Made by a program: the position numbers and the translations under genes. A DNA stretch of 64,000 nt from contig NZ_JAATVV010000012.1 in assembly GCF_013184775.1 (NCBI RefSeq), forward strand, positions 124,001 to 188,000. Direction: 5' to 3'. This document shows, in pieces, positions 17,045-41,039 of this stretch (positions are counted from its first letter, which is position 1; every line of letters begins with the position of its first letter). Origin of the DNA: Martelella sp. HB161492 (GTDB lineage Bacteria; Pseudomonadota; Alphaproteobacteria; Rhizobiales; Rhizobiaceae). The notes under the pieces are model-generated. The model was given only the letters and a program-made list of their open reading frames with translations, was not told where the DNA came from and did not search any database.

Positions 17045-18487
17045 TCAGGCGGGCCTGAAACCGAGGATCGACTTCACTTCCATGAAATCGAGCATGCCGA
17101 ATTCTCCAAGCTCACGGCCATTGCCCGACTGGCCATAACCGCCAAAGGGCGCATTGAAATCGAAGTCCGGGTTGTTGATGAAGACCCGGCCGGCCCTGAG
17201 CTTGCCGGCAATCGCATTGGCATGGTCCTGATCGCGGCTATAGACATAGGCCGCCAGTCCATAGGCGGTGCCGTTGGCAATCGCAACCGCCTCATCCTCA
17301 TCCCGGTAGGTCATGACCGACAGGACCGGCCCGAAAATCTCCTCGCGGGCGATCGCCATATCCGGTGTCACATCGGCAAAGATGGTGGGGCGCACATAAT
17401 AGCCGCGGTTCAAACCGTCCGGCCGACCCGGCCCGCCGGCAACAAGCCGCGCGCCGTCTTCAACGCCGCGGGCAATCATCGCATCAATCTTGTCAAACTG
17501 GGCAATGCCGCTGACCGGACCGGTTGTCGTCTCGTCAAGCGTCGGGTCACCGACGCGGTATTTCTGCGCCTCGGCTTCGGCCATTTCCAGCACCTGTTCC
17601 AGCTGGCTCTCATGCACCAGCATGCGGCTTGGGGCGATGCAGGACTGGCCGGAATTGATGAAACAGCGCGCCACACCGTCGCTGACAGCGAGATCGAGGT
17701 CGGCATCCGGCAGGATGACATTAGCCGATTTGCCGCCGAGTTCCTGATGCACGCGCTTGACCGTCGGTGCTGCGGCCATCGCCACGGCGACACCGGCCCG
17801 GGTCGAGCCGGTAAACGACACCATGTCGATATCATGATGCGCGGCGATGGCATGCCCGACCACGGGCCCCGTTCCGTTGACAAGGTTGAAGACGCCCTTC
17901 GGTACGCCAGCCTCGTGCAGGATCTCCGCCAGCATCAGCGCACTCAGTGGCGCGATCTCGCTCGGTTTCAGCACCACGGTGCAACCGGCGGCAAGTGCCG
18001 GCGCGAGCTTGGTGACGATCTGGTTCAGCGGCCAGTTCCATGGCGTGATCAGCCCGCAGACACCGATCGGCTCATGCACGATCTTCGTCGTGGCAAGCGT
18101 TGTCTGCGGCTGGCGCTCGAAATCGTGCTCCTCCAGCACCCGGGCAGCCTCGCGAAAATAGATCACGCTGGAACCGGTCTGCATCACCCGTGACAGCCAG
18201 CGCGGCGAGCCCATTTCCATGGTGACGGCTGCCATCAGCGCCTCCTGGCGCGCCTCGAGGAGATCGGCGATCCGTCGCAGAAGCGCCACCCGCGCAGCCC
18301 TCGGCGTTGCGGCAAAGACCGGGAAGGCGGCGCGGGCGGCAGCAACGGCGCGGTCGACATCGGCGGCATTGCCATAGGCAACCGTTTCGACGACCTCCTC
18401 TGTCGCCGGATTGACGACCGCGCCGGTTTCATCGGAAAGCGGCGCCACGAAGGCGCCATCGATATAGAAGGAACGCGACCGCATCAT
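17045..18487 (-). CDS. NAD(P)-dependent aldehyde dehydrogenase
   Basis: A 480-residue cytoplasmic aldehyde dehydrogenase that oxidises an aldehyde to a carboxylic acid. The general base Glu249 (HQELGGKSA) and catalytic Cys283 (NSGQSCIAPSR) are in place, with the cofactor motif FTGSTRAG and the C-terminal motif PFGGYGQSGNGRE. Substrate cannot be set from sequence. Its ATG overlaps the stop of the class III aminotransferase gene, so the two are coupled: the pair probably converts a terminal amine to semialdehyde and then to acid (inference). It is the last gene of the 17-31.7 kb catabolic block. Confidence 0.94.
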   Translation of the reverse strand: MMRSRSFYIDGAFVAPLSDETGAVVNPATEEVVETVAYGNAADVDRAVAAARAAFPVFAATPRAARVALLRRIADLLEARQEALMAAVTMEMGSPRWLSRVMQTGSSVIYFREAARVLEEHDFERQPQTTLATTKIVHEPIGVCGLITPWNWPLNQIVTKLAPALAAGCTVVLKPSEIAPLSALMLAEILHEAGVPKGVFNLVNGTGPVVGHAIAAHHDIDMVSFTGSTRAGVAVAMAAAPTVKRVHQELGGKSANVILPDADLDLAVSDGVARCFINSGQSCIAPSRMLVHESQLEQVLEMAEAEAQKYRVGDPTLDETTTGPVSGIAQFDKIDAMIARGVEDGARLVAGGPGRPDGLNRGYYVRPTIFADVTPDMAIAREEIFGPVLSVMTYRDEDEAVAIANGTAYGLAAYVYSRDQDHANAIAGKLRAGRVFINNPDFDFNAPFGGYGQSGNGRELGEFGMLDFMEVKSILGFRPA

Positions 18488-19866
18488 CAGAGAACCCCGA
18501 ACGCCTTCGCCGTCGCATCGAGCGCCTCGCGGGCGATGGCGAAGACGGTCTCAAGCTCGTTTTCCGTGATGATCAGCGGCGGCATCAGGCTCATCGTATC
18601 GCCGTTGGCCCTGAAGGCAAGGCCACGCCGGGCCGCTTCCTGGCTGCAATATTCACCGATCTTCGCGGCCTCCGGAAAAGCCTCCTTCGTTTTCTTGTCT
18701 GCGACGATTTCAAGCCCGCCCATCAGACCGACAACGCGGACATCGCCGATCAGCGGGTGGTCGGCAAAAGCCTGAAGCCCAGCAGCAAAGAGGGGAGCAA
18801 GCACCTGCCCTGCCCGTTCGACCAGCTTTTCCTCTTCGAGAATGCGGATATTTTCAAGCGCCACAGCACAGCTCACCGGATGGCCGGAATAGGTATAGCC
18901 ATGGGCCCATTCACCGCCCTTTTCGATCAGCGTGTCAGCAACCCGGTCGCCCATGACTGAGGCTGACAGCGGCATATAGCCCGAGGTAATCGCCTTGCCG
19001 AGCTGGATGAAATCCGGCTTGATGCCGTAATAATCGCAGCCAAACCATTGTCCGGTGCGCCCGAAACCGCAGACGACCTCATCGACCAGCAGCAGCACAT
19101 CGTATTTCTTGCAGATGCGCTGGATTTCCGGCCAGTAATGCATCGGCGGGCAGATGGCGCCGCCGGCGCTTTGTGCCGGTTCGGCGATGAAGGCGGCGAC
19201 ATTATCGGCGCCGAGTTCCAGAATCTTGTCTTCCAGCCAGGACGCAGCGAGAACGCCAAAGGCCTCAGCCTCCATGCCTTCCGGGGCATTGCGGTAGGGA
19301 TAGGCGGTCTTCACCCGATGGACATTGCCAAGCGGCAGATCGCCGCCGGCACCATGCATCGGCGTCAGGCCCGAGAGACTTGCGGCCATGTGCGTTGAGC
19401 CGTGATAGGCAGCCTCGCGGGCAATGATCAGCCGCTTGTCCGGCCGTCCTTCCAGATCCCAGAACCGCCGGACAGCGCGAATTGCCGTTTCGTTTGCCTC
19501 CGATCCCGAACACTGGAAGAAGACATGGTTCAGCCCCTCGGGCAGCATGCCGGTCAGCTTTTCGGCCAGCAGAACGGCGCTTTGATGGGTCGTGTTGAAG
19601 AAGGACTGGCAATAGGACAGTTCGGTCATCTGCTGCGCGGCGGCGATGACGAGTTCCGGCCGGCCATAGCCAAGGCAGACATTGCCAAGCCCGGACAGCC
19701 CGTCAATCATGCGGTTGCCGTCACTATCGGTCACATAAATGCCCTCTGCTTTCACCGCCACGCGAGCGCCGGCCTGGCGCAACGCCTTGTGATCGGTGAA
19801 GGGATGCAGATAGTGGGCACGGTCCATGACCTGCCAGGCTTCGGTTCCGCGGGACAACGTATTCAT
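18487..19866 (-). CDS. Class III PLP-dependent omega-aminotransferase
   Basis: A 459-residue aminotransferase. The PLP lysine is Lys291 in IQLGKAITSGY, with Asp262 in LLVDEVVCGFGRTG and the cofactor-binding GSEANETAIR. The family transaminates omega-amino acids, diamines or taurine-like amines using pyruvate or 2-oxoglutarate. The start gives MNTLSRGTEAWQ, typical of beta-alanine/taurine-type members. It is the first gene of a coupled pair with the aldehyde dehydrogenase, 170 bp downstream of the deaminase gene. Confidence 0.93.
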   Translation of the reverse strand: MNTLSRGTEAWQVMDRAHYLHPFTDHKALRQAGARVAVKAEGIYVTDSDGNRMIDGLSGLGNVCLGYGRPELVIAAAQQMTELSYCQSFFNTTHQSAVLLAEKLTGMLPEGLNHVFFQCSGSEANETAIRAVRRFWDLEGRPDKRLIIAREAAYHGSTHMAASLSGLTPMHGAGGDLPLGNVHRVKTAYPYRNAPEGMEAEAFGVLAASWLEDKILELGADNVAAFIAEPAQSAGGAICPPMHYWPEIQRICKKYDVLLLVDEVVCGFGRTGQWFGCDYYGIKPDFIQLGKAITSGYMPLSASVMGDRVADTLIEKGGEWAHGYTYSGHPVSCAVALENIRILEEEKLVERAGQVLAPLFAAGLQAFADHPLIGDVRVVGLMGGLEIVADKKTKEAFPEAAKIGEYCSQEAARRGLAFRANGDTMSLMPPLIITENELETVFAIAREALDATAKAFGVL

Positions 19867-20036: not shown

Positions 20037-21386
20037 TCACGCAGACGTCGCTGCCTCCAGAAAACGCCTTGCCGCCTTGCCATGCTCTTCCCTGAGCTTG
20101 CCGACATCGACGCCGAGCGGATTGCCGTCGATGACCTGCCACTTGCCGGCCACCATCATCCGGTCCGCCGCATGCGCACCACAGAGAACAAGCGCCGCGA
20201 TCGGGTCGCCGGCGCCGGAAAACCGCAATTCATCCAGCGTGAAGAAGGCGAGATCGGCCTGATAGCCGACGGCAATTTTGCCAATATCGCTGCGACCGAT
20301 ACAGGCAGCAGAACCTTCCGTTGCCCAGCGCAGCACGTCGAGATGGGTGATCGCAGACGAGCCATAGGTCAGCCGGCCAAGCAGCAGCGCCTGACGCACA
20401 CCTTCCATCATGTTGGAATTGTCATTGGAGGCGGATCCATCAACGCCAAGGCCAACGATTGCGCCAGCCGCCTCGAGATCCTTGGTGCGGCACTGGCCGG
20501 AGGCGAGCGTCATGTTCGAGGTCGGGCAATGGCAGACGCCGACACGATGGCGGCCGAGGCGTTTGATCTCGTCATCGGTGAAATGGATGCCATGGGCAAG
20601 CCAGACCCGGTCATTCATCCAGCCCACCTCCTCCAGATAATCGACCGGGCGGCACTGGAAGTGATGCATGCAATATTCATCCTCATCCAGCGTTTCGCCG
20701 AGATGGGTGTGAAGCCGGCAATCATGCTTTTCCGCCAGAATAGCGGTATCGATCATCAGCTGCTTGGTGACATTGAAGGGCGCGCAGGGTGCAAGTGCGA
20801 CCGTCGACATCGAACCTTCAGAGCGGTCATGGAACTTGCCGAGCACACGTTCGCAATCGGCAAGCACTACATCGTAATCCTGCATCAGCCGCTCATCGGC
20901 AATGCCGCCGCTCTTGGAGCCCATATTGACCGCGCCGCGCGTCAGCGCCACGCGCATGCCCAGCTTCTCCGCCTCTTCCGCCTCGATATCGACAGCATCC
21001 GGCATATCGGCGGCAACCGCATAGAGATGATCCGAGGCCGTGGTGCAGCCGGACATCAGAAGTTCGGTCAGCGCGAGCCGGACGCCAAGCCGGAAGGTGT
21101 CGCGGTTCAGATGCGTGCCCCAGAGCGGATAGAGCACTTTCAGCCAGGGAAACAGCTCCTTGTTGATGGCGCCGGGATGCGCGCGCGTCAGCGTCTGGAA
21201 GAAATGGTGGTGGGTGTTGACGAGACCCGGGATGATGACGTGGCGGCTTGCGTCAAACACCTCGTCACACGGGGCGGACGGGCCATTATTGCCCACCAGT
21301 TCGACAATCCTGCCGCCTTCGACAACCAGGCCGCCCGGGGCGTTTTCCGCCAGCATGGCAATGGGGTTCTTGATCCAGATGCGCAT
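20037..21386 (-). CDS. 8-oxoguanine-deaminase-like amidohydrolase
   Basis: A 449-residue metal-dependent amidohydrolase of the TRZ/ATZ/guanine-deaminase branch. Metal ligands are visible in GLVNTHHHFFQT (H-x-H), THLGE, LAHGIHF and GLGVDGSASND. The CHCPTSNMTLASG and GVDGSASNDNSNM segments and the length match 8-oxoguanine/isoxanthopterin deaminases (PA0142 type). The likely reaction is hydrolytic removal of an exocyclic amino group from a purine- or pterin-like ring. A tandem ATG gives the start at 21389 or 21386. It follows the stop of the upstream gene by 1-4 bp, so it is translationally coupled. Confidence 0.88.
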   Translation of the reverse strand: MRIWIKNPIAMLAENAPGGLVVEGGRIVELVGNNGPSAPCDEVFDASRHVIIPGLVNTHHHFFQTLTRAHPGAINKELFPWLKVLYPLWGTHLNRDTFRLGVRLALTELLMSGCTTASDHLYAVAADMPDAVDIEAEEAEKLGMRVALTRGAVNMGSKSGGIADERLMQDYDVVLADCERVLGKFHDRSEGSMSTVALAPCAPFNVTKQLMIDTAILAEKHDCRLHTHLGETLDEDEYCMHHFQCRPVDYLEEVGWMNDRVWLAHGIHFTDDEIKRLGRHRVGVCHCPTSNMTLASGQCRTKDLEAAGAIVGLGVDGSASNDNSNMMEGVRQALLLGRLTYGSSAITHLDVLRWATEGSAACIGRSDIGKIAVGYQADLAFFTLDELRFSGAGDPIAALVLCGAHAADRMMVAGKWQVIDGNPLGVDVGKLREEHGKAARRFLEAATSA

Positions 21387-21390
21387 CATT

Positions 21391-22365
21391 TCAACTTTCA
21401 AGCATATCGGCGGAAAACAGGTCCTCGACAGCAAAAGCGGTCGAGATCAGCCCGTCTTCCAGCATGTAACGGATGATGGTTTCCAGCATAACCCGGTTGC
21501 CGGCAAGGCCCGCAGGCCAGTAATCCTTGCCCATCACCGCTTCGGTTTCCAGAAGCGCTTCCATCTGCCAGGGCAGCATGGTGGAAAGGGCGGCGGCCTC
21601 GAACAGTCTGGCGCGGGCAATCTGCTGCGCCCGTGAAAAAGCATCAAAGAGCGCTGGCACAACATGGGGATGGGCCTCGGCGATCGGACGCTTGATCGCC
21701 AGAACATGCATGGCCGGGAAGATGCCGGTCTTGTTGAAGTACGCTATCTCGGCGGCCTTTGGATCGGCAAACAGCCGGTCGACCTCGGCAGAGGGCCAGG
21801 TGCTCGGCGCCCGGGCGGTATAAAGCGCATCGATTTCGCCCTTGGCCAGAAGCTGCGCCAGCCCCATGTCGCGGCGGTCCTCGAAGGTGAATTTTCCCGG
21901 ATAGAACTGCGGATGTTCATCGCCGGTGCGCGGTGTTTCAAAGCCACCGATCACATAAGTGGGCGATGTCCGGTCAAGGCCGTAAGCATCGTGGAATATG
22001 CCGCGCAGCCAGACGGCGGCGGCCATATCGAACACCGGAATGCCGATGCGCTTTCCGGCAAGGTCGGCAGGCTTTTCAAAGCCGCGGCCGGACTTCACAT
22101 AAATGCTTGAAAAGCGGAAATGCCGCGAGGGAAAGATCGGGATCGCCAGATAGGGCCTTTCAGCCGTTTCCAGCGTTCGAAGATAGGTGGCCAGCGGAAA
22201 TTCGCAAACGTCGAAATCATGGGTGGAGAGCTGGCGGTTGAACAGCGCCTGCACCCCCATCATCGAAATCTCGGTATCGATCCCTTCGATCGGTGCCTCA
22301 CCATTGGCAAGCGGACGGGTGCGGTCGCTGTCGGAAAGCCCCAGCTTCAGTTTGAATGCGCTCAT
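21391..22365 (-). CDS. 4,5-dihydroxyphthalate-decarboxylase-like protein
   Basis: A 324-residue protein of the periplasmic-binding-like fold, close to 4,5-dihydroxyphthalate decarboxylase (Pht5): LGLSDSDRTRPLANGEAPIEGID, FDVCEFPLATYL, AIPIFPSRHFRFSSIYVKSG and GKRIGIPVFDMAAAVWLRGI. There is no signal peptide (MSAFKLKLGL), and no permease or ATPase nearby, so a cytoplasmic enzyme is more likely than an ABC transporter solute binder, although automated annotation often says the latter. GGGGA lies before the ATG. It lies 33 bp after the ArcS-motif gene and runs into the deaminase gene. Confidence 0.78.
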   Translation of the reverse strand: MSAFKLKLGLSDSDRTRPLANGEAPIEGIDTEISMMGVQALFNRQLSTHDFDVCEFPLATYLRTLETAERPYLAIPIFPSRHFRFSSIYVKSGRGFEKPADLAGKRIGIPVFDMAAAVWLRGIFHDAYGLDRTSPTYVIGGFETPRTGDEHPQFYPGKFTFEDRRDMGLAQLLAKGEIDALYTARAPSTWPSAEVDRLFADPKAAEIAYFNKTGIFPAMHVLAIKRPIAEAHPHVVPALFDAFSRAQQIARARLFEAAALSTMLPWQMEALLETEAVMGKDYWPAGLAGNRVMLETIIRYMLEDGLISTAFAVEDLFSADMLES

Positions 22366-22398: not shown

Positions 22399-23412
22399 CT
22401 AAAGGCCAAGACGTGCCATCAGCACGTCGAGCAGTTCCGGCAGGGCCAGCGGCGTGGCGTTGGCGCCACCACGGGCATAGATTGCCTGGGCATGGCTTTC
22501 GGAAATATCGAGCCGCTGCATCAGCCGCTGAACGGCATCCCGGCACTGATCCAGCGTCGGCAGGCATTCGATCCGCGCGGATTTCGGCAACTGATCATTG
22601 GCGCCTTCAAGCGTCAGATAGACCGTGCCGATCTTGCGCCGGGCGACAACCTTGTTTTCGGACCGCTCATCGGCGGCGATGACAAAGGAGCGATGGGTGA
22701 GACCGGGCGCGACCCATGAAATGACATCATCATAGTTGCCGCCGATCCGGGCAACGACGGCGGCAACGGCATCGGCCATGGCATTATGCATCAGCACATA
22801 GTGGCGCTTTTCCTCATCGCCCCAGCGCCATTTGGTTTCCGACAGCTTCACCGCCGTACAGTCGGCCCGCCAGGGCGAGACCGCATTGCCCCGACCTTCG
22901 AACAGGCCCGGATCGTCATAGGCGCAGGCCGGCGAGGCAAGGCCCTTGTAATCAGCGATATGCTCATAGGGAACGACGCCCATCGGCTCGGAGATCACCA
23001 TGCGGTGGATCACCGTGCCGGCGTCGTTTTTCAGCGGCGACAGATTGAGCACCTCGGGCGCAATGCCGTCTTCAAGCCGCGCCACGAGGTCTTGCGGCAG
23101 GCTCAGTTCATCGGTCGGGCGGAACCCTTCGGCGATCAGCCGCTGATTGATGGCCTGATGCTCGGTTGAAAAGGGATAGGGCTTTGTCTTCGTGCAGGGC
23201 ATGAAGAGCAGGATATGCCGTTTCCCCTCGGGCAGGTCGGGCTGATATTCGTCGCGGACGAAATCGAGCCATGCCGCGATCCGCGGATGGGCAAGCACAT
23301 CGACATTATCCTGCGGGGAATAGATGCACAGCTCCGGATCAACATGGAAAGGAGCCTGAATCTTGCGCTTGGATTCTTCGATCCGCTGCTCACGGTTTTC
23401 AATCGAGACCAT
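22399..23412 (-). CDS. DUF5591 / archaeosine-synthase-motif protein
   Basis: A 337-residue soluble protein. Residues 72-85 read PCTKTKPYPFSTEH, which fits the PC-x3-KPY-x2-S-x2-H signature known from archaeosine synthase ArcS (lysine transfer to preQ0 in tRNA) and from DUF5591. Flanking segments (KRHILLFMPC, VISEPMGVVPYEHI) fit the same domain. The radical SAM, TGT and PUA domains of archaeal tRNA enzymes are absent. There is no known bacterial function for a stand-alone copy. It sits 19 bp after a flavin monooxygenase and 33 bp before a decarboxylase-like gene in a catabolic operon. The sequence family is well supported; the role is unknown. Confidence 0.75.
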   Translation of the reverse strand: MVSIENREQRIEESKRKIQAPFHVDPELCIYSPQDNVDVLAHPRIAAWLDFVRDEYQPDLPEGKRHILLFMPCTKTKPYPFSTEHQAINQRLIAEGFRPTDELSLPQDLVARLEDGIAPEVLNLSPLKNDAGTVIHRMVISEPMGVVPYEHIADYKGLASPACAYDDPGLFEGRGNAVSPWRADCTAVKLSETKWRWGDEEKRHYVLMHNAMADAVAAVVARIGGNYDDVISWVAPGLTHRSFVIAADERSENKVVARRKIGTVYLTLEGANDQLPKSARIECLPTLDQCRDAVQRLMQRLDISESHAQAIYARGGANATPLALPELLDVLMARLGL

Positions 23413-23431: not shown

Positions 23432-24895
23432 TTATGAGGCTTTGGCCGCCGGCAGTTCTTCCATCATTTCTTCCGGCAGAACCAGCTCCGGCACGTCATA
23501 GGCCTTCAGGGCTTCAAAGTGGTCATCCGCCTCGGCCAGGAACAATTCACGGGTCAGCCCGCGTGAAACCCGGTCGATGCCGAATTTGAGCGAGGAGATA
23601 CCCGCCGCACCGGCAAGGCTCGGCATGGCGCCGTAGGTGTAGTTGAAGACATGGCGCAGGAAGGGGGCCGTGCCCGGCACCTTCTCGGTCATCTGGAAGC
23701 AATCGGAGAGATAGGGGAAGCCGGCAATCACCGCATCCTTCATCGGCGCTTCCGGTGTGTAACGATCCCCCCAGACCGCAATCTTCTCGGCAAAACGCGC
23801 AAGCTCGGGGCGGGCGGCGAAATCATTGACGAAACCGGTCCCGACGATCAGATAGTCGAATTCTTCCGTTCCATGCGGGGTCGTCAGCAGCACCTTGCCA
23901 TCCTTCTCGGCAAGACCGTCGATCGGGCTGCCGAGCTTCAGCGCAAAATTGGCAAAGTCGGCGCAGCGCTTGTAGGTATCGGCGGGCGGCGGCTGGTTGC
24001 GGTCAAACAGCGTCTTCATGATGCGCCATTTGCGGGCATCGTCGAGATCGCCGAAATGACGCAGGAAGCCGGTATATTCCATCCAGCGATAGGGATTGAC
24101 GACGGGCAGACGCTTGCGGCGGGCAAAGAGCTTCACGCTTGCCGCACCGGTTTCAAGCGCGACGGCGGCATTGTCAAAGGCCGAAGCACCCGCGCCGATG
24201 ACCGCGATCTTCTTGCCCTTCAATGCTTCGAAATCAATCATCTCGGAGGTGTGGCCATAGGCCTCGCGCGGCAGGTTTTCAGAGACGATGCCGGGCACGG
24301 ACCAGTGGCCGGAACCGTCAATGCCGGTCGCCAGCACGATGTTGCGGGCATAAAGCACCTTCTCGCCTTCAGCCGACCTCGTCGTCACGGCAAAGAGATC
24401 ATCACTGAGCGGCTCGACATCGGTGACTTCAACGCCATTTTGAACCGGAATGCCGACCGTCTCGCGCAGCCAGAGCAGGTATTCGCTCCACAATTCCTTC
24501 GGGATCTTGCCGAGCGCATCCCAGCTTTCAACGCCATATTTCGCTTCCCACCAGGCGCGCACCGACAGCGAGCCGATACCGAGTTCCGGCCCTGTCACGG
24601 TCTTCGGCGTGCGCAGCGTGATCATGCGCGCGAAGGTGCACCATGGCCCCTCGGACCCGGCCTCACTGCGTTCCAGAACGGCGATATTGGTGACCTTTTC
24701 GCGCATCAGCTTGAAAGCCACCGTCAATCCGGTCTGACCGCCGCCGATGATAACGACATCCTTGACCTTCTGCCCCTGATATTCGCGCGGGGCGACCCAT
24801 TCACGCGCCGGATAATCGGTGCATTCCAGATCATGGCGGGCGCGGGCCTGCAATTGTGAAAGTCTGGTCTGATCGTTCAAGATTTCATTCCCCAT
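23432..24895 (-). CDS. Flavin-containing monooxygenase (FAD/NAD(P)-binding)
   Basis: A 487-residue oxidoreductase with two Rossmann motifs: the FAD site DVVIIGGGQTG at residues 47-56 and the NAD(P) site KIAVIGAGASAFDNAA in the middle. Layout fits FMO/Baeyer-Villiger-like enzymes, but the usual FxGxxxHxxxW fingerprint is replaced by AYGHTSEMIDF, so the reaction (hydroxylation, N-oxygenation or Baeyer-Villiger) is open. Start at 24895 (MGNEIL) is a choice; an upstream ATG at 24937 also lacks a ribosome site. It begins the operon with the DUF5591, decarboxylase-like and deaminase genes. Confidence 0.86.
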   Translation of the reverse strand: MGNEILNDQTRLSQLQARARHDLECTDYPAREWVAPREYQGQKVKDVVIIGGGQTGLTVAFKLMREKVTNIAVLERSEAGSEGPWCTFARMITLRTPKTVTGPELGIGSLSVRAWWEAKYGVESWDALGKIPKELWSEYLLWLRETVGIPVQNGVEVTDVEPLSDDLFAVTTRSAEGEKVLYARNIVLATGIDGSGHWSVPGIVSENLPREAYGHTSEMIDFEALKGKKIAVIGAGASAFDNAAVALETGAASVKLFARRKRLPVVNPYRWMEYTGFLRHFGDLDDARKWRIMKTLFDRNQPPPADTYKRCADFANFALKLGSPIDGLAEKDGKVLLTTPHGTEEFDYLIVGTGFVNDFAARPELARFAEKIAVWGDRYTPEAPMKDAVIAGFPYLSDCFQMTEKVPGTAPFLRHVFNYTYGAMPSLAGAAGISSLKFGIDRVSRGLTRELFLAEADDHFEALKAYDVPELVLPEEMMEELPAAKAS

Positions 24896-25092
24896 AAACT
24901 TGCGATTCGAAAAAGGGCGCCTGGGTCTCTCCGCCATTGTCAGCCGGATGAACCATGGCCTTGGTGCCTGCTGTTGTTGCTGATGCCCTCATCGAGAACC
25001 GGTCGGAATGACATGGTGCCAACTCTATGCCTGCACCCTGCCCGCTTTCCAGTTTCCTGACATGTCCATCAGTGCGGAAAAGCATAGCCATG

Positions 25093-26073
25093 TTATTTTG
25101 CAACGCAACAAAGTTGCGCGCGACGGTAGTCCCTCGGGGCAACGTCGAAGCGACTGCGAAAAGCGCGGCTGAAATGCGAAAAATCCTTGAAGCCACGCTT
25201 GAGCGCGATCGTGGTGATGGGGAGGCCTGCCTGAAGCGGATCAGCGAGATCCGCGCGGATCCGCTCCAGCCGCTGGGCCTTGATCCACGGCACCAGCCGG
25301 TCATCTTCGCGCTCGAACAACTCGTAGAGCGAGCGCAGCGACAGGCCTTCCGCCCTGGCGATGACGGCCGGCGACAGCGCTGCATCATCGAGATGATCAA
25401 GAATATAGGTCTTGACCCGGCCAAGCTGCGCCTCGCGCCCGGCCGAAAGCGGCAAGGTTTCGGAAAACCCGGTCAGTGCCGTTGCCAGCAGGTCGATCAC
25501 GTGGCTCTCGATCCGGGCCGACAGCATGGCTGTTGCCTCGTCCTGACGCATATCGGCCAGCGCCAGGACGAAATCGTAGAAAAATCGTCCGGGAACGCGA
25601 TCCGCCGGAATGGCGCGCGCCAGCAACCTGTCGACATGCGGGATACGATCGACAATCGGCCGGCGCGGCACTTTCAGCGAGATCTGGCGATAGTGCCCCT
25701 CGAAAGCCATGCGATAGGGCCTGCGACTGTCATAAAGCACCATGGAACGCGGCGTTGTCACCACATCGCGCCCCCCCTGATTGAAGGCGCTGACACCCTC
25801 GACCTGAAGCGTCACTTCAAACCACTGGTCATCGCGGTCAATATGTTCTTCGGCACGGCTGACCACCAGATCATTGGAGACAATATCGGCCATGGTGATC
25901 TCACCGAAGGTGAGCCAGGAGAGGCGTCCATAAAAGCCGGCCGGATCCTTGCGCCGCACGCCGGTTGGCGGAAAGACGGCATTGGTCGCGGCGAGCCAGT
26001 AGTCCAACCGCTCGGAAGCCGCCACGGCATCGGTGGAAAGCCGGCGCCAGCCGGTTCGGACAGGCTCAAGCAT
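25093..26073 (-). CDS. AraC-family transcriptional regulator
   Basis: A 326-residue regulator. The N-terminal part fits the AraC-binding-like domain (FeaR-type, VVTTPRSMVLYDSRRPYRM). The C-terminal AraC helix-turn-helix pair covers the last 100 residues (LSPAVIARAEGLSLRSLYELF and ITTIALKRGFKDFSHFSRAFR, DVAPRDYRR). The start at 26073 follows GGAGG and overlaps the flavin reductase stop by 8 bp. As last gene of the HpaB operon it probably activates the operon and perhaps the next one in response to a pathway compound (inference). Confidence 0.92.
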   Translation of the reverse strand: MLEPVRTGWRRLSTDAVAASERLDYWLAATNAVFPPTGVRRKDPAGFYGRLSWLTFGEITMADIVSNDLVVSRAEEHIDRDDQWFEVTLQVEGVSAFNQGGRDVVTTPRSMVLYDSRRPYRMAFEGHYRQISLKVPRRPIVDRIPHVDRLLARAIPADRVPGRFFYDFVLALADMRQDEATAMLSARIESHVIDLLATALTGFSETLPLSAGREAQLGRVKTYILDHLDDAALSPAVIARAEGLSLRSLYELFEREDDRLVPWIKAQRLERIRADLADPLQAGLPITTIALKRGFKDFSHFSRAFRSRFDVAPRDYRRAQLCCVAK

Positions 26074-26575
26074 GGGATGCAACCTCCATCGGGACGACGC
26101 CATGGGAAAAGCGGCTGGCAAAGAAAACGAGCGGCCGTCCCTCATCGACGCTGAGGGCTGAGACCCGGCCGATCAGAATGCGATGATCGCCGCCATCATA
26201 AATCCGGTCGGTCCTGCAGTCGAAATGGGCGAGCGCCCCGGCAATCAATGGCAGGCCGCTTGCAGCCGCAATCGTTTCCACATCGGCAAAGGGATCGGCA
26301 TGACCACGGGCGAAATGCGCGGCAATCCCGCTCTGGCTCTCCGACAGCACACTGATGGCAAAGCCTTGCGCCGCCTCGAAGACGGCGCGCGAACGGGCAT
26401 TGTCGCGCAGGCTCCACAAGACCAGCGGCGGCTCCATCGACAGCGACGTGAAGGAGGAAATCGTCATGCCGACGCTGCGCCCCTCATGGCGGGCGGTGAC
26501 CACGGCGATACCGGTGGCGAACTGGCCAAGGGCGCGGCGCAGATCCGGCTGGCTCACATGGGAGAGATCAGGCAT
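26066..26575 (-). CDS. Flavin reductase (HpaC-like)
   Basis: A 169-residue NAD(P)H:flavin oxidoreductase of the HpaC/FMN-binding split-barrel family: LRRALGQFATGIAVVTA, GMTISSFTSLSMEPPLVLWSL, FAISVLSE and GDHRILIGRV. It should supply reduced flavin to the monooxygenase encoded at the head of the operon. AAAGGGG lies before the ATG. It overlaps the amidohydrolase end and the AraC start, both by 8 bp. Confidence 0.92.
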   Translation of the reverse strand: MPDLSHVSQPDLRRALGQFATGIAVVTARHEGRSVGMTISSFTSLSMEPPLVLWSLRDNARSRAVFEAAQGFAISVLSESQSGIAAHFARGHADPFADVETIAAASGLPLIAGALAHFDCRTDRIYDGGDHRILIGRVSALSVDEGRPLVFFASRFSHGVVPMEVASHA

Positions 26576-28067
26576 CAAACGAACCCCTTTCCGGACGGAT
26601 GAAGCGTTCGATGGCCAGCGGCGCGCTCATCAGCCTTTCCGCATGGGAAACAGCAAAGGGTGCGAGCCGGCTGGCAAGTGCCGAAAGATCACGATTATCG
26701 GTCCGCAGCTGCGCAACCGCCTCGGAAACCCGGTTCGACAGATCATCAAAAACAGGCGCCGTCAGCACGCCATCGCGCAGGCGGAACCGTCCGCCCACCA
26801 TGACATCTGTAATGGTATCGGCGCCAGCACTGGTGATCAGCTGGTTGAGCGGATCGTTCAGCGGCAGGAAGTCGATATGATCGAGATCGAGGAAAACCAG
26901 GTCGGCATCGGCGCCGACGGCGATCCGGCCCGCATCGGCCCAGCCGATGAGCGCCGCCCCCGCCATGGTGCCCATGCGAAACGTCTCCAGCGCGGTTGGC
27001 CAGTGCGCTGCCGGATCGCCATAGAGGCGGGCGCCGAAGGAAGAAAGCCGCATGGCGCGAAACATGTCCAGCGCATCGGAGGAGTTGGCACCGTCGGTGG
27101 CAAGTCCGACCGTGATGCCACGCTCCAGCATCGGCCGCACATGGGCAAAGCCGACGCCAAGACGCATATTGCTTGCCGGAACATGGGCGATCTTCGCGCC
27201 AGCTGCGGCAATCATGTCAAGATCATCCGGATCAAGCCAGACCGCGTGGGCCGCCACGAATTCCGGCCCCAGAAGGCCAAGATCCTTGAGATAGGCAATC
27301 GGCGACATGTCATATCTGTGGAAGGCGGTAACCCGCTGCAACCGGCTCTCCGCGACATGCATATGGATCGGCACCGAAAATTCAGCCGCGATTTCGGCTG
27401 ACGCCAGCAGGAATGTCTCTGAACAATGGTGCGGAATGGTTGGCGCGATGGCGAGTTCAATGCCCGCTGGCAATTCGTCGCGCCGGGCGAAGATGGCGCG
27501 CACGGCATCCAGCACCACAGCGCCGTCGATCGGCGCGGAAACGGCGGCCTTCAGATCATCAGGCAAGCTATCGGCAAGGCCGGGGATCGCCTGAAAGAAG
27601 GAAAGATCGGAGATCATCGGCGAAAGCCGCGCCCTGATCCCGGCATCGGCATAGGCGCGGGCGCAGGCGAAAAAGCCCTCGACCGTCGGCAACGGATATT
27701 CATAGACGAGATCGAAACAGGCCGTCGCCCCCTTCTTCAGCATCTCGGCAGCCGCGAGAAGCGTCGAGGCATAGATGGTTTCGGGCGAGCGCCGCCCCGC
27801 AAGCCAGGATGCATGGCTGAGCGAAGTCTCCAGCATCCAGCGTTCGGCCATGCCCTTGTTGAGGCTCATATGTCCGTGCGTGTGGCTGTTGATCAAACCG
27901 GGGACCACCATGCGCCGCGAGGCATCGACCACCGTCTCGCCGACAAGCGTGCCGGGCCTGGCAATGGCATCAATCCGACCGGCTTTGACCAGAAGATCGC
28001 GATGTTCGACCGTACCGGACAAGGGATCAGCGACCAGCCCGCCGGAAATCAGCACCGTGTCGTTCAT
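26568..28067 (-). CDS. TRZ/ATZ-type amidohydrolase
   Basis: A 499-residue metal-dependent hydrolase of the cytosine-deaminase/chlorohydrolase branch. Metal ligands: GLINSHTHGHMSLNKG (H-x-H), MHVAES, AAHAVW and GLATDGANSSD. The family deaminates or dechlorinates N-heterocycles or opens cyclic amides. It differs clearly from the 8-oxoguanine-deaminase-like gene in this cluster, so the pathway has two such hydrolytic steps. It overlaps the deacetylase gene by 4 bp (ATGA) and the reductase gene by 8 bp. Confidence 0.9.
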   Translation of the reverse strand: MNDTVLISGGLVADPLSGTVEHRDLLVKAGRIDAIARPGTLVGETVVDASRRMVVPGLINSHTHGHMSLNKGMAERWMLETSLSHASWLAGRRSPETIYASTLLAAAEMLKKGATACFDLVYEYPLPTVEGFFACARAYADAGIRARLSPMISDLSFFQAIPGLADSLPDDLKAAVSAPIDGAVVLDAVRAIFARRDELPAGIELAIAPTIPHHCSETFLLASAEIAAEFSVPIHMHVAESRLQRVTAFHRYDMSPIAYLKDLGLLGPEFVAAHAVWLDPDDLDMIAAAGAKIAHVPASNMRLGVGFAHVRPMLERGITVGLATDGANSSDALDMFRAMRLSSFGARLYGDPAAHWPTALETFRMGTMAGAALIGWADAGRIAVGADADLVFLDLDHIDFLPLNDPLNQLITSAGADTITDVMVGGRFRLRDGVLTAPVFDDLSNRVSEAVAQLRTDNRDLSALASRLAPFAVSHAERLMSAPLAIERFIRPERGSFDA

Positions 28068-28981
28068 GCGCCTGCCTCCGGCGGATGAGTTGCGATCCAG
28101 TGACGCGCGACCTCGGAACGCCCGGCGATCCAGACATCGGGGTGTTGCCCGACCAGATCAAGAAAACGCTGCACCGCCTCGAACCGTGACGGCTGACCGG
28201 AAATGCGGGCATGAAGGCTCACCGTCATCATCCGCGGGCGGCGGGCGCTTTCGGCATAAAGCACACGGAAAGCAGAGCCGAGATGCGCATACATGTCCTC
28301 GGCCGTACCAAGCTTCGCGGTCGCAAGCCGGTTATCATTATGGGTAAAGGAATGCGGCACGACCAGATGCGAGAAACCGGCCGTTTTCACCCAGAAGGGC
28401 AGATCATCGGCATAGCTATCGGCATCGTAGAGAAAGCCGCCATGTTCCACCAGCAGCCTGCGGGTCGCAGCGCTTGGCGAATAGCGGCTCTGCCAGCCAA
28501 GCGGGCGGATGCCGACCGTGCGCTGCAGGCTTTCCACCGTGCGGGCGATCACCTTGCGCTCTTCCGATTCAGTCATCAGGAAATGCCGGGCGAAGCGATC
28601 ACCATGGGCGCAGAGATCGAAACCGGCGGCGGCGATCTCGCGGCCGATTTCCGGCGTCTTTTCCAGCGCCCGTGCACAGGCATTGACGGTGAGTTTGAGG
28701 CCCCGGTCGAAGAACAGCTCAGACAGGCGCCAGAAGCCGACCCGGCTGCCATATTCGTAAAGCGTTTCAGCGACGAAATCGCGCGTTCCGGCCGGCACTT
28801 CGCCGGGAATGCCATCCGTGAGCCCGACCTCGCTTGCGCTGTCACCATCGGCAATGGAGGCCTCTGCCCCCTCTTCGAGATTGAGCACGACCACAAGCGC
28901 CATGCGCGCGCCGCCCGGCCATTGTGGGTCCGGCGGGGTTTTGCCATAGCCGATGAAATCGCGGTCGCCATCGTTGATCAT
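28064..28981 (-). CDS. Polysaccharide-deacetylase family protein, PuuE allantoinase-like
   Basis: A 305-residue cytoplasmic hydrolase of carbohydrate-esterase-4 fold. The start region DFIGYGKTPPDPQWPGGARM and VVLNLEEGAE follow the PuuE-type (cofactor-independent) allantoinase pattern, and FDLCAHG replaces the usual H-x-x-x-H metal site, as in that group. It probably opens a cyclic amide or hydrolyses a C-N bond. The start at 28981 overlaps the amidase stop by 4 bp; the frame upstream of it is inside the amidase gene. Confidence 0.85.
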   Translation of the reverse strand: MINDGDRDFIGYGKTPPDPQWPGGARMALVVVLNLEEGAEASIADGDSASEVGLTDGIPGEVPAGTRDFVAETLYEYGSRVGFWRLSELFFDRGLKLTVNACARALEKTPEIGREIAAAGFDLCAHGDRFARHFLMTESEERKVIARTVESLQRTVGIRPLGWQSRYSPSAATRRLLVEHGGFLYDADSYADDLPFWVKTAGFSHLVVPHSFTHNDNRLATAKLGTAEDMYAHLGSAFRVLYAESARRPRMMTVSLHARISGQPSRFEAVQRFLDLVGQHPDVWIAGRSEVARHWIATHPPEAGA

Positions 28982-30162
28982 GAGCGCTCCACCAGCGGTC
29001 CGAGCGCCTCGGCAAAGGCCAGCAGCCGCTCCTCGCCGCGATGACCGGCGATCACCGACAGCCCGACCGGGCAGTGATCGACCGTGGCCGCAGGGATGGC
29101 GATCTGCGGCAGACGGCAAAGGCTTGCGACACAGGTCAGCGCCAGTGTCTTTTCGCGGAAGACGATCTGTGCAGACACATCGGCGTCAAGGAAAGGCGGC
29201 AGATCATGGGCCGTCGGAATGACGATCATGCCGTCATCGCCGAGCAGATCAAGAAGCCGCGTCGTCAGATGTTCGCGATTGACGACCGCTTTCGCATGGG
29301 CTTCAGGATCGACGGTCCTCGACAGGTTGATGCGCTGGTCGACCGATTCCGACAGCGCCCGGCCCGGCTCCATGCACCAGTTGCCGAGCGTTGCCCAGAG
29401 ATCGTGGAGCTGCAATGGCCGGAAGGTATCGAGCCAGTGCTCGACGCCCTCCTGATAGAGCGTGATATCCTGCGCCGGGCCAAGCATCTGCGCCGCACGC
29501 AGCAATGTCTCGCCAATGCCGTTGACCGGAATATCAAAGGCATCACGGGCAATCATCAGCCGCGGTGCCGCCCTATCGCGCGAAAAAGCGCCGAAATAGG
29601 CCTCGCCGACCCGCGCCAGCATGCTGGCATCACGCGCCAGCCAGCCGACCGTGTCGAAACTCGGCGCCATGGCCATGACGCCGGCGGTGGAAATCCGGCC
29701 GAAGGTGGTGCGCAGTCCATAAAGCCCGCAAAAACTGGCCGGAACGCGGATCGACCCGCCGGTATCCGAACCGATGCCGAAATCGGCGATACCCGCACCG
29801 ACGGCAGCGGCCGAGCCGGACGACGAGCCGCCCGGCGCGCGGTCCGGGGCCGCGGGATTGATCGGCGTGCCGAAGGCCGGGTTCATGCCGAACATGCCGC
29901 AGGCCAGCTCATCCGTGTGGGTCTTGCCGATCAGGCTTGCACCGCTCATCAGCGCCGTCAGCACCGAGGGCGCGGTCGACAGCGAAGGCTTGCCGTCGCG
30001 GGCACGGTCCACATTGCCGCAGGCCGTGACATGGCCCTCGATATCGAAAAGGTCCTTGGCGACAAAGCTGAGGCCTGAAAGCGGGCCAACCCTGCCCTTG
30101 GTCATGGGAGTGTCGAAGCGCGTGATGAAAGCGCTTCTGGCAATCGCGTCAGTCGTCGGCAT
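28978..30162 (-). CDS. Amidase (amidase signature family)
   Basis: A 394-residue amidase, short for the family. The Ser-cisSer-Lys catalytic residues are visible: Lys in LSFVAKDLFDIEG, the glycine-serine stretch APGGSSSGSAAAVGAG and the nucleophile segment DTGGSIRVPASFCG. It hydrolyses a carboxamide to acid and ammonia; the substrate is probably a pathway intermediate. GGAG lies before the ATG at 30162, which is 4 bp after the monooxygenase stop. Confidence 0.92.
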   Translation of the reverse strand: MPTTDAIARSAFITRFDTPMTKGRVGPLSGLSFVAKDLFDIEGHVTACGNVDRARDGKPSLSTAPSVLTALMSGASLIGKTHTDELACGMFGMNPAFGTPINPAAPDRAPGGSSSGSAAAVGAGIADFGIGSDTGGSIRVPASFCGLYGLRTTFGRISTAGVMAMAPSFDTVGWLARDASMLARVGEAYFGAFSRDRAAPRLMIARDAFDIPVNGIGETLLRAAQMLGPAQDITLYQEGVEHWLDTFRPLQLHDLWATLGNWCMEPGRALSESVDQRINLSRTVDPEAHAKAVVNREHLTTRLLDLLGDDGMIVIPTAHDLPPFLDADVSAQIVFREKTLALTCVASLCRLPQIAIPAATVDHCPVGLSVIAGHRGEERLLAFAEALGPLVERS

Positions 30163-30166
30163 CAGC

Positions 30167-31645
30167 TCACTCCGCCGCATCGCTGATCGGCGTCGCGAGG
30201 TCATAGCTACCCATGAAATCCTCGACAAAGCCCTTCACACCATCCCAGTCGTAGAACCGGAAAGCATTGCCGCGCGTGACGAAGGCGGGGCCGGAATAGA
30301 ACATTTCATATTGCAGATGACGCGAGCCGAATTCGGAACCGACGGCATCCCAGGCCAGCTTCATCAGCTTGACCCGTTCATGGCTGTCGCAGATGGCCGA
30401 GCGCTGGGTCTTGCCGATGATCGCTGCGGTAATCGGATTGTCGAAATCCTCGACCGAGGACGGCACCATGATCAGACCGCCACCGGCGAGTGTACGCAGG
30501 GTCTCGACCACTTCCGGATAGGTGGTCTGGGCAATCACCTGCGCGGTGCAAAGCATGGTGCGGTCCGGCACGAAATAGCCGTTATGCACCTCGCCCGAGA
30601 TTTCCATCGCCGTGATCAGCGCTTCGATATTATTGACCTTGGCGGCCATCAGGCCGAGCGTTTCACGCACCTGCGGATAGTTGATGATGTTGTTGGTCTC
30701 GGCAATCTTGCGCATCAGCCCGATCAGAAAACGCAGCTTCACCATCAGCCTGATGATGCACTGGTAGTTCTGATAGACATGGGTACGGGTATTGTGCCAC
30801 TGCGCCTGCGCCAGTTTCAGATCCTGATTGACGAAAACGCGGTCCCAGGAAATCTTCACATCATCGAAATAGACGACCGCATCATTCTCGTCGAACCGGC
30901 TGGAAAGCGGATAGTCGAAAGACGAGGTTGCGTCCTTCTCATAGGAGCGGCGCGACATCAGCGTCAGCCCCCTGGCATTGATCGGCGTCACGGCGGTGAA
31001 GGCATAGGCCTCATCCCCCGGCTGCAGGGCCTGGAAACCCGAGACCAGCAGTTCGTCCGCCAGAACGCCACTGGTTGCCAGCATCTTGGCGCCACGGATG
31101 GTGATCCCCTCGGAATCCTCATCCACGACCCGGCAGACCAGATCGGGATCGGGCTGACCACCGGCGGATTTCGCCTTGTCCGCCTGCGGGTTGATGATCA
31201 CGTAAGACAGAAACAGATCATTGTCGCGGGCATATTCATAATAGGATCTGACCGCCGCAGCCCGCTTGGGATCGAACTCCTCGAAGGCCGGCAGCCCCAT
31301 CCGGAAAGCCGAAATCGTCGAGGCAACATGGTCGGGCGAACGGCCGATCATGCCGCAGGTCTGCGCCGCCCATTTTTCCAGCGCCTTGCGGCGAAAGACG
31401 AGTTCTTCCCACGACGTCGGCAGAAACCAGGATTGCGAAACACGCTCACCGGTCTTCGGCGACGAAAAGGTCATCGCTTCGAGATTTTCAGGCTGCGCCT
31501 GAAAATCGTAAAGGCCTGCGACCGATTTTACCGCGTTCTGAAATGCCGGATCAGTGACGACATTGTCGACCTTGCGCCCATCGATATAAACGGTGCGGTT
31601 GTCGTTGTTGATCTTGTCGAGATAGGCTTGCCCGTTCCTGGCCAT
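30167..31645 (-). CDS. HpaB-type flavin-dependent monooxygenase (oxygenase component)
   Basis: A 492-residue oxygenase of the 4-hydroxyphenylacetate 3-hydroxylase family. Typical features are FLPTSWEELVFRRKALEKWA, the DNDLFLSYVIINPQADKAK segment, MLATSG, YFDDVKISWDRVF and a helical C-terminal domain. The family uses reduced FADH2 made by a separate reductase; a reductase gene lies four genes downstream in the same operon. Some HpaB relatives hydroxylate pyrrole, pyridine or phenol rings. Substrate unknown. First gene of the operon, with a candidate promoter 80-110 bp upstream. Confidence 0.9.
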   Translation of the reverse strand: MARNGQAYLDKINNDNRTVYIDGRKVDNVVTDPAFQNAVKSVAGLYDFQAQPENLEAMTFSSPKTGERVSQSWFLPTSWEELVFRRKALEKWAAQTCGMIGRSPDHVASTISAFRMGLPAFEEFDPKRAAAVRSYYEYARDNDLFLSYVIINPQADKAKSAGGQPDPDLVCRVVDEDSEGITIRGAKMLATSGVLADELLVSGFQALQPGDEAYAFTAVTPINARGLTLMSRRSYEKDATSSFDYPLSSRFDENDAVVYFDDVKISWDRVFVNQDLKLAQAQWHNTRTHVYQNYQCIIRLMVKLRFLIGLMRKIAETNNIINYPQVRETLGLMAAKVNNIEALITAMEISGEVHNGYFVPDRTMLCTAQVIAQTTYPEVVETLRTLAGGGLIMVPSSVEDFDNPITAAIIGKTQRSAICDSHERVKLMKLAWDAVGSEFGSRHLQYEMFYSGPAFVTRGNAFRFYDWDGVKGFVEDFMGSYDLATPISDAAE

Positions 31646-33287: not shown

Positions 33288-34100
33288 TCAACCGCGCGGC
33301 ATTGCAGCCTTGACGACGATCTCAAAAGCTTCAGCGCCGGCAAATTCAGCCCGGCCGCAGGCGCCAGGCAGCACTTCGTGAATACCGGTGGTCATGCCGG
33401 TCAGCACGATATCGCCGGCATGGAGAATACGGCCGCGGCTGGCGAGATTTTCAGCCAGAAGGCGGACGGATTCGAGCGGACCATTGGCAACCTTGGCAGC
33501 AGAGCCCTCGCCGACAACAGCACCATCGACCAGCATCCGAGAGGTCATCGCATCAAAAGTCAGCCGCTTCCAGCCGTCGATGACCGGTCCGACAACCGCA
33601 CCGGCATTGTTGCCGTGATCGGAGACGACGGCGGTCGGGCCGAGCGCATTCAGCGTTGCAAGCGGGCTGGAGGCAATTTCAGCACCCGCATGGATCGCGC
33701 CAATGGCATTCAGAATAACATCATCGCTGAAACCGTTCGGGCCGGCTTCGAGATCCTTGGCGAAGACCACCGTGAATTCGGCCTCAAGTGCTGCAAAGCC
33801 ACCTTCAAAGACGCTGACCTCTGCCATGCCGCCCTTCGGCAGACGACGGATGTTGTCAGCATAGATCGGGCCGACAATGCGGGTTGCGCCGAGCTTTGCC
33901 CGCAGATCAGGATGAACGCCAGCGACTTTCCAACCACCGATCGGGCGCATGTCCAGTTCCAGCGCCTTGTCCTGCACGCGATAGGCCTCTTCCAGCGTGG
34001 CCGGCAGATCGCCGGGGAAATCATCGAGTTTGGTTGCCTGACGCCGCGCCTCGACAAAGGCTGCGGCAATCGCTTCAATCTCAGTGTCGCTCTTGCTCAT
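33288..34100 (-). CDS. 2-keto-4-pentenoate hydratase / FAH-family protein
   Basis: A 270-residue enzyme of the fumarylacetoacetase-fold hydratase family: YRVQDKALELDMRPIGGWKVA, an acidic metal site in LEAEFTVVFAKDL, AGAEIASSP and GDIVLTGMTTGIHEVLPG. Classic members hydrate 2-oxo-pent-4-enoate in ring-cleavage pathways. Here it lies at the end of an operon with KduI and KduD type genes, so a sugar-acid-derived 2-oxo acid may be the substrate (inference). The start at 34100 follows GAGG; the frame extends upstream without support. Confidence 0.85.
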   Translation of the reverse strand: MSKSDTEIEAIAAAFVEARRQATKLDDFPGDLPATLEEAYRVQDKALELDMRPIGGWKVAGVHPDLRAKLGATRIVGPIYADNIRRLPKGGMAEVSVFEGGFAALEAEFTVVFAKDLEAGPNGFSDDVILNAIGAIHAGAEIASSPLATLNALGPTAVVSDHGNNAGAVVGPVIDGWKRLTFDAMTSRMLVDGAVVGEGSAAKVANGPLESVRLLAENLASRGRILHAGDIVLTGMTTGIHEVLPGACGRAEFAGAEAFEIVVKAAMPRG

Positions 34101-34235
34101 CTTCCCGCTCCTCTTCTGGCCATCGTCGAGACGGCCGCATTCGGGTCTTCCCATATAAAGAATGCAGGCGACGCGAACCGCCGCCTGCAATTGATAAAGC
34201 GTCTATATAACGCGCGTTTTCACGGTGCCAACCGG

Positions 34236-35021: not shown

Positions 35022-35080
35022 GGATCGGGTCTTTCCGTTCTTGAGAGATCTTCAGTGGGATGGACGATTAACGTCAGCGA

Positions 35081-35923: not shown

Positions 35924-36102
35924 TTCGAACTCTCCACAATGTCTCGGGGGACCGCTTCTCCTCCGCCGGCTGACAATGACGCTCTCGTGAACAGATCGCA
36001 CATTGCGGGTCCCATGGGTGATAGCCGACAGTTTCGCGTGTTAGGGCATAATGCTTTCGTTGAACAAATGACAGAGCAAAACCATCATTAATATGACTGA
36101 TC

Positions 36103-39403: not shown

Positions 39404-39411
39404 CGGGGACC

Positions 39412-40843: not shown

Positions 40844-41014
40844 GCACCGGGACCTGTTCCGGCCGGTCCCGATTGGTTTTCGATGCTAGAGGGGCTACGT
40901 TACTGCGATTGGTCCATCGCTCTCGTTTTGTTTCCGGGAGCGGCCATTTTTGTAACTGAACTTTGCCAGATGCCGGCCGGCAATGTTTCGTCGCAAGAAT
41001 TCACTGGTTCGGCG

Positions 41015-41039
41015 ACGCGAAATGCTTCCTATTTCGCGT
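41015..41039. promoter_or_regulatory. Perfect 9-bp palindrome just upstream of the response regulator
   Basis: ACGCGAAAT and ATTTCGCGT pair perfectly around a 7-base spacer, 21 bp before the ATG at 41061. This is a good place for autoregulation of the two-component operon. Confidence 0.6.

Follow-up and report, generated by a model that had tools for sequence, protein, structure and literature searches.

According to the portions of the literature consulted, the archaeosine synthase ArcS adds lysine to the preQ0 nitrile in tRNA, or ammonia from several donors in the case of M. jannaschii (PMC11298593). The ArcS of T. kodakarensis also accepts the preQ0 nucleoside, though only in complex with RaSEA (PMC11298593, sections available), so that the reaction would not require tRNA. 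The same nitrile is the target of QueF and QueF-like enzymes, which are described as acting via a cysteine thioimide, with an absorbance near 376 nm reported for that of QueF-like (PMC5485725, excerpts); a nitrile attack of this kind by the motif cysteine of ArcS was not found in the sections of the ArcS literature consulted. Vibrio phage nt-1 encodes an ArcS homologue, and its DNA contains mainly dPreQ0, as well as dG+ and dADG, according to the part of the source available (PMC6884629). In Clostridioides difficile, queuosine salvage is attributed to QueK, QrtT, and QueL (PMC11477304, PMC11130926, in part), and QrtT, the S component for queuosine precursors, is assigned to PF12822 in the latter source.

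No breakdown route for the 7-deazaguanine ring was found in searches of the open-licence PMC literature, and neither was a DUF5591 or ArcS-type enzyme in catabolism. DUF5591 itself went unmentioned there, and AF0587/2Q07 had unrelated mentions only. To our knowledge, the DUF5591 domain is known solely from nucleic acid modification.

A stand-alone DUF5591 protein in Martelella

The window (the whole 64,000-nucleotide stretch of Martelella DNA that was analyzed) encodes a 337-residue protein that an earlier note, made from the sequence alone, had linked to ArcS through the pattern PC-x3-KPY-x2-S-x2-H, which we take to be the motif of ArcS. The motif, PCTKTKPYPFSTEH at residues 72 to 85, was confirmed as the single occurrence of the pattern in the six-frame translation of the window (127,996 residues). 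Each of 15 homologous segments, among them that of the window (777,090 residues in total), had one copy of the pattern, and its Cys, Lys, Pro, Tyr, Ser, and His were invariant in a 12-sequence alignment (A1).

A search with the DUF5591 profile (PF17884), the check that the earlier note had proposed, yielded 33 bits versus a cut-off of 26. Residues 45 to 91 were aligned to columns 2 to 44 of 150, so that this profile alone covers just the N-terminal third of the domain. Three other homologues scored 31, 25.6, and 34.5 bits, the second of these being slightly under the cut-off. Profile-profile alignment with two DUF5591 proteins (from phage nt-1 and a fragment of AF0587) extended over 81 columns that include the motif plus VISEPM..VVPYEH..SPA.AYD-DP, with an E value of 3.7e-4 (one pair compared) and a probability of 36.6 (hhalign), both profiles being very shallow.

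DUF5591 was the sole Pfam family in the 337-residue protein up to an E value of 1, so that neither a TGT-like nor a PUA domain was found, in agreement with the earlier statement that the other tRNA enzyme domains are absent. At the same threshold there was no QueF (T-fold) domain and no PF03883 (DUF328), the family to which DpdC belongs in the available part of its description (PMC12839542). The ArcS equivalog models of NCBIfam scored 24.6 bits (NF040592; cut-off, 440) and 23.7 bits (NF053620; cut-off, 600). With the PF17884 cut-off passed and the equivalog scores this far below theirs, the protein is, on sequence criteria, a member of the DUF5591 domain family and not ArcS, and the earlier label of archaeosine synthase does not hold as a statement of membership.

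The fold of the protein was predicted with AlphaFold2 from the 12-sequence alignment, and the best of five models had a mean pLDDT of 78.3 (range over the five, 78.3 to 48.7) and a pTM of 0.84. When VIA-align 2 was run on the 781 chains that Foldseek had ranked highest (776 aligned), the best match was archaeal AF0587 (2q07), with a Z score of 9.7 over 134 residues at 2.9 Å and 22% identity, versus a Z score of 5.0 over 46 residues for the second-ranked chain. In the predicted model the resemblance to DUF5591 thus extends to 134 residues, beyond the 44 columns of the profile. AF0587 carries the same motif, as PCTARKPYLTSRTH, which was seen by searching with the phage nt-1 relative. In the model of the Martelella protein the motif is contiguous in sequence, running from the end of a predicted strand (residues 64 to 70) to the start of a predicted helix (residues 82 to 93).

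Table 1. Features of the DUF5591 gene cluster in the window
Feature	Position	Strand	Basis
Aldehyde dehydrogenase	17045..18487	-	Annotation of Rhizobium plasmid homologue
Aminotransferase	18487..19866	-	Rhizobium plasmid homologue annotated "aspartate aminotransferase family protein"
Amidohydrolase, 8-oxoguanine deaminase equivalog	20037..21386	-	NF006055, 606.5 bits (cut-off 532)
NMT1/type-2 binding-protein-fold protein, decarboxylase-like, no evident signal peptide	21391..22365	-	Weak NMT1 and SsuA matches
Stand-alone DUF5591 protein of 337 aa (family of the ArcS catalytic domain), ATG start	22399..23412	-	PF17884, alignment, fold match
Motif PCTKTKPYPFSTEH, residues 72-85	23158..23199	-	Translation and pattern scan
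FAD/NAD(P) monooxygenase (flavoprotein)	23432..24937	-	Pfam, NCBIfam, predicted fold
AraC-family regulator, closest to FeaR	25093..26145	-	174.9 bits (cut-off 199)
Flavin reductase, type serving two-component monooxygenases	26066..26578	-	Pfam, NCBIfam
Second amidohydrolase, TRZ/ATZ type	26568..28067	-	Family matches below cut-offs
PuuE-allantoinase-like hydrolase, polysaccharide-deacetylase type	28064..28987	-	TIGR03212, 317.4 bits (below cut-off 424.6)
Amidase	28978..30228	-	NF006169, 397.7 bits (cut-off 391)
HpaB-type flavin monooxygenase, oxygenase component	30167..31645	-	349.4 bits (below equivalog cut-off 480.2)

Genes surrounding the DUF5591 gene

The neighbors of the DUF5591 gene are those that the earlier note had described, an FAD monooxygenase on one side and a decarboxylase-like protein followed by a guanine-deaminase-like enzyme on the other (Table 1). 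The decarboxylase-like protein, which presumably resembles 4,5-dihydroxyphthalate decarboxylase, had weak matches to NMT1 (17.4 bits; cut-off, 20.5) and to the SsuA family (23 bits; cut-off, 163.5). The flavoprotein scored 51.6 bits with PF13434 (cut-off, 21.3) and higher with PF13738. For its predicted fold (model pLDDT, 72.3), the first 45 of the 50 Foldseek rows shown were amine N-hydroxylases, counting SsDesB, which we take to be one. Because YpdA, other FMOs, and N-hydroxylases all fell within about one Z unit of each other in VIA-align, the label of N-hydroxylase is a weak one. MSMEG_0569 flavoproteins are linked to nitrilase clusters; the flavoprotein of the window is not of this type (37.9 bits with TIGR04046 versus 498.35), and neither a nitrilase nor a DpdC-type partner was found among the ten window proteins scanned with Pfam and NCBIfam.

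Several other genes of the window were recorded. On the reverse strand at 33288 to 36001 there are separate genes that read as a KduD-like dehydrogenase and a KduI-like isomerase together with a member of the fumarylacetoacetate hydrolase family; they were taken as uronate metabolism, and of the 15 segments that of the window alone had their families. An RND efflux pump with its membrane-fusion protein (36239 to 40668, reverse strand) and a divergent response regulator with a sensor kinase (40983 to 43045, forward strand) were recognized by reading; two Kaistia-group segments also have an AcrB-like gene in their flanks. A membrane protein of 486 amino acids with cysteine-rich, ferredoxin-like motifs, of the NosR/NapH type by eye, is encoded at 13356 to 14816 on the forward strand.

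Conservation and distribution of the cluster

The window proteins were compared by tblastn with 16 loci, of which four short ones of 3 to 4 kb (L001 and L013 to L015) were left out of the counts. The 12 long loci consist of a copy on a Rhizobium plasmid and 11 related loci whose record titles name Martelella, Kaistia (three), Parvibaculum, Bosea (a MAG), Mesorhizobium, Bradyrhizobium (three), and an unplaced Hyphomicrobiales MAG. There are fewer genera than these titles suggest, because the Bosea- and Mesorhizobium-titled records share match coordinates with genomes grouped with Kaistia, and the M. alba locus is nearly identical to the window.

The flavoprotein, the DUF5591 protein, the decarboxylase-like protein, and the second amidohydrolase were present in all 12 long loci, and the HpaB-type oxygenase, the amidase, the PuuE-like protein, and the 8-oxoguanine deaminase were present in 11, the exception being a 9.6-kb contig (L007). 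The flavin reductase, the AraC-family regulator, and the aminotransferase were found in 9 of the 12 and the aldehyde dehydrogenase in 8 (a 70-residue piece in L008 was not counted); the three Bradyrhizobium loci, which had none of these four genes within reach, account for the absences of the first three. Identities of the cluster proteins with the 11 loci other than M. alba ranged from 41% to 83%. Gene order varied: the deaminase gene lies upstream in the Bradyrhizobium loci but downstream in the others, and the Parvibaculum flavoprotein gene is displaced, its product being just 41% identical. The decarboxylase-like gene was the next same-strand gene after the DUF5591 gene in 12 of 12 loci. 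Thus, the catabolic setting and the recurrence of the same partners across genera, both of which the earlier note had expected, were borne out by this survey.

Further genes were counted in 15 segments, from which L002, whose sequence is almost that of the window, and L009 (the same place as G519) were left out. The Asp/Glu-racemase/arylmalonate-decarboxylase family was represented in 10 segments, a second PuuE-like protein and a histone-deacetylase-fold hydrolase in 9 each, a CobW GTPase in 8, and an asparaginase in 3. These numbers are lower bounds, because the greedy gene caller missed or merged genes such as the DUF5591 gene in L007 and several flavin reductase genes, which were counted by tblastn.

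The closest named relative of the 337-residue protein, with 96% identity, is that of Martelella alba BGMRC 2036, a species of the window's own genus; a genome listed in that genus has its match at the contig coordinates of the M. alba record. The gene was detected in 3 of 61 related genomes and, within the genus, in 2 of 13 (the window's own genome counted); among 397 genomes of the order it was found in 8, belonging to 3 of 142 genera. Exactly these 8 genomes, 6 of which are of one genus, also encoded the decarboxylase-like protein in a close form (at least 68% identity), and 34 further genomes of the order had distant forms only (45% or less). The copy on the Rhizobium plasmid was the only one in 72,556 plasmid records. 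In a sample of 398 Pseudomonadota genomes, apparently the same one for both searches, A1 and PF17884 each matched 1 genome, that of the window. The bacterial form was sought outside the Pseudomonadota by a pattern scan, which picks up close relatives. In IMG/VR, 17 pattern stretches for A1 and 4 for the nt-1 protein were retrieved and none was confirmed as a viral relative, and no relative of the bacterial protein was detected in 50,697 phage records (tblastn, E value of 10).

The conservation of the cluster, the co-occurrence of its genes, and the lack of tRNA enzyme domains in the DUF5591 protein make it very likely that this protein acts on a small molecule. The ring of that molecule is likely to be guanine-like, judging from the deaminase, which scores above the cut-off for 8-oxoguanine deaminase.

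Importers and nucleoside enzymes near related clusters

In three Kaistia-group genomes (3 of 15 segments), the flanks of the cluster contain an inosine-uridine nucleoside hydrolase (296.4 bits in the copy scanned) and parts of an ECF transporter. The ECF S component was matched best by the model for the CD3073 family (126.9 and 125.4 bits versus a cut-off of 180), and the two S components scored 29.8 and 27.1 bits with PF12822, slightly under its cut-off of 30.7. All four matches to the CD3073 model in seven genomes fell in cluster flanks, and there were none in the other four genomes; no confirmation of the role of this family was found in the open-licence literature.

A Bmp-type importer adjoins all three Bradyrhizobium loci, and its ATPase was closest to a "putative B6 ABC transporter" (422 bits; cut-off, 670). 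The type of importer is not the same in all genera, and transporters of these kinds often carry compounds that resemble vitamins, purines, or nucleosides. Creatininase-like and isochorismatase-like ORFs (L047:7825-8799 and 9242-10001), recognized by reading near one Bradyrhizobium locus (L008) and its importer, would be consistent with additional hydrolysis of amides or ureides. Degradation of vitamin B6 was considered because of the ATPase match and of a gene annotated as pyridoxal 4-dehydrogenase near the Rhizobium copy; it was not preferred, because no model of a B6 pathway was among the best 25 matches of each of the ten window proteins scanned.

The earlier note had suggested chemistry on a nitrile, amidine, or 7-deazapurine-like small molecule. 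The small molecule has been strengthened by pointers to a purine-like compound or nucleoside, namely the 8-oxoguanine deaminase, the nucleoside hydrolase and ECF components of the Kaistia group, and the Bmp-type importer of Bradyrhizobium; the nitrile, the amidine, and the 7-deazapurine stay proposals.

Proposed pathway and alternative explanations

The reading that we tentatively prefer, with a probability of about 0.42, is that the DUF5591 protein, as a stand-alone enzyme, has a free base or nucleoside and not tRNA as its substrate, and that it catalyzes one step in an inducible degradation of 7-substituted 7-deazaguanines. Candidate substrates would be preQ0, preQ1, queuine, or a natural-product relative. 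By analogy with ArcS, QueF, and QueF-like enzymes, we propose that Cys73 may attack the nitrile of a free base or nucleoside. What the analysis shows are the homology and motif, the match of the predicted fold, and the conservation and co-occurrence of the cluster genes, whereas we infer the substrate, each reaction, and the order of the steps.

After import, the base would be released where a nucleoside hydrolase is present. The N-hydroxylase-like flavoprotein might oxidize a side-chain amine towards the oxime and nitrile (aminomethyl to oxime to nitrile). Attack of Cys73 on a preQ0-like nitrile would give a thioimidate, which could be resolved by water or an amine, the side chain passing to the amide and then the carboxylate. 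The carboxylate might be lost through the adjacent decarboxylase-like protein and the 2-amino group removed by the 8-oxoguanine-deaminase-type enzyme. The HpaB/flavin reductase pair would then hydroxylate the ring, the PuuE-like, TRZ/ATZ-type, and amidase hydrolases would open it with release of ammonia, and the fragments could reach central metabolism via the aminotransferase and the aldehyde dehydrogenase.

A 7-deazaguanine would fit most of these pieces and none demands it, the most specific hints (ECF components and nucleoside hydrolase) coming from one genus-level group. Degradation of another guanine- or pyrimidine-like heterocycle, such as 8-oxoguanine, a pterin, a triazine, or a vitamin fragment, is a credible alternative, if one short of even odds; the DUF5591 protein would then have been recruited for a Cys-based addition, hydrolysis, or C-N cleavage that does not involve a nitrile. 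The deaminase is called as an 8-oxoguanine deaminase equivalog, which fits plain 8-oxoguanine equally well, and the remaining hydrolases resemble enzymes of purine and triazine degradation at the family level only. The "B6" match of the Bradyrhizobium importer and the differences in importer type between genera point in the same direction. Counting against a 7-deazaguanine are also the restriction of the nucleoside hydrolase and S component to 3 of 15 segments, the lack of a preQ1 riboswitch or any other Rfam family in the window and in six loci, the lack of PF12822 matches in the window's own genome, the three Bradyrhizobium loci without four of the cluster genes, and the lack of a nitrilase or DpdC-type partner among the ten proteins scanned. 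However, the characterized relatives of the DUF5591 protein act on 7-cyano-7-deazaguanine, as far as the sections consulted describe them (PMC11298593), and the ArcS-type motif is present in every one of the 15 segments.

It is also possible that the cluster salvages queuosine precursors for tRNA without degrading them. The window's own genome encodes a TGT (502 bits), and its sole match to the QueC profile (22.2 bits) lies in an ORF read as NAD synthetase (positions recorded for the two genes together, C12:358644-358826 and C12:64975-66036), so that the strain may import a queuosine precursor; the nucleoside hydrolase and S component of the Kaistia group recall QueK and QrtT. However, salvage has no need for ring-hydroxylating and amide- or ring-hydrolyzing enzymes, and the gene is present in only 2 of the 13 genomes of the genus; this explanation is unlikely. 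An archaeosine-like modification of tRNA or DNA in bacteria by an ArcS relative would agree with the DUF5591 homology and with phage nt-1, which has a stand-alone DUF5591 protein and whose DNA contains mainly dPreQ0, as well as dG+ and dADG, in the available account (PMC6884629). Yet the protein has no TGT-like or PUA domain (Pfam, up to an E value of 1), no TGT, QueC, or radical-SAM (RaSEA-like) family was detected among the ten window proteins scanned, and the same catabolic genes accompany DUF5591 in 12 of 12 long loci, which renders such a modification quite unlikely. A chance match of the motif in a protein unrelated to ArcS might be suspected from the hhalign probability and from several searches: with the model of the DUF5591 protein, Foldseek alone gave no match at an E value of 0.001 or better, either in its general search or in a viral structure library, and searches of PDB sequences with the protein (phmmer) and with its alignment (profile) returned chance rows only and missed AF0587. 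The Pfam cut-off that was passed, the profile-profile agreement beyond the motif, and the gap in Z scores between 2q07 and the next chain largely refute this idea, which is very improbable.

Queuosine-type bases are a shared micronutrient, and a cluster that combines an ArcS-family domain with a guanine-type deaminase is a concrete and testable candidate for their degradation. If the 7-deazaguanine reading is true, it would describe a new route by which some bacteria consume such bases, would bring the ArcS-type domain into small-molecule chemistry, and could provide an enzyme for converting heteroaromatic nitriles. A bolder version, which is more doubtful, is that the cluster represents an undescribed bacterial mineralization of 7-deazaguanines (queuine, preQ1, preQ0, or deazapurine antibiotics), in which the DUF5591 protein would be a free-base nitrile hydratase/hydrolase or amidine-forming enzyme and the first catabolic case of the archaeosine synthase fold.

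Comparison with known systems

The deaminase of the cluster passes the cut-off for the known 8-oxoguanine deaminase (NF006055), for which we know of no conserved multigene cluster with a DUF5591 protein. The Rut pathway of pyrimidine degradation brings together a flavin monooxygenase with a flavin reductase and the hydrolysis of amides, and the same types are found here. Unlike in Rut, the oxygenase is of the HpaB type, and the flavin reductase scored 59.2 bits versus a RutF cut-off of 254.75. A likeness to the salvage system of C. difficile is that the three Kaistia-group genomes have a nucleoside hydrolase close to the cluster, along with an ECF S component; in contrast to that system, the S component falls below the CD3073 and PF12822 cut-offs and the rest of the cluster looks degradative.

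With ArcS the 337-residue protein shares the DUF5591 profile, the motif, and, in the predicted model, the fold that the DUF5591 part has in AF0587/2q07. ArcS has TGT-like and PUA domains, whereas the 337-residue protein has no other Pfam family, stays far below the ArcS equivalog cut-off (24.6 versus 440 bits), and is bacterial, being encoded in a catabolic cluster with no RaSEA-like radical-SAM family among the ten proteins scanned.

A DUF5591 domain that stands alone is not in itself a novelty, because Vibrio phage nt-1 has such a protein. Its ORF388 (L025:1369-2049; 226 amino acids), annotated as a hypothetical protein, matched DUF5591 with 43.7 bits and, like the Martelella protein, has this domain alone in one protein. 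Its motif region, LCTTTRPYENSRKW, differs in that the leading Pro is missing, Arg replaces Lys, and Trp replaces His. ORF388 lies between a 6-pyruvoyl tetrahydropterin synthase-like gene and a GTP cyclohydrolase I gene, with an ExsB gene alongside. Thus, the neighbors of the phage gene are those of biosynthesis, whereas the neighbors of the bacterial DUF5591 gene look degradative.
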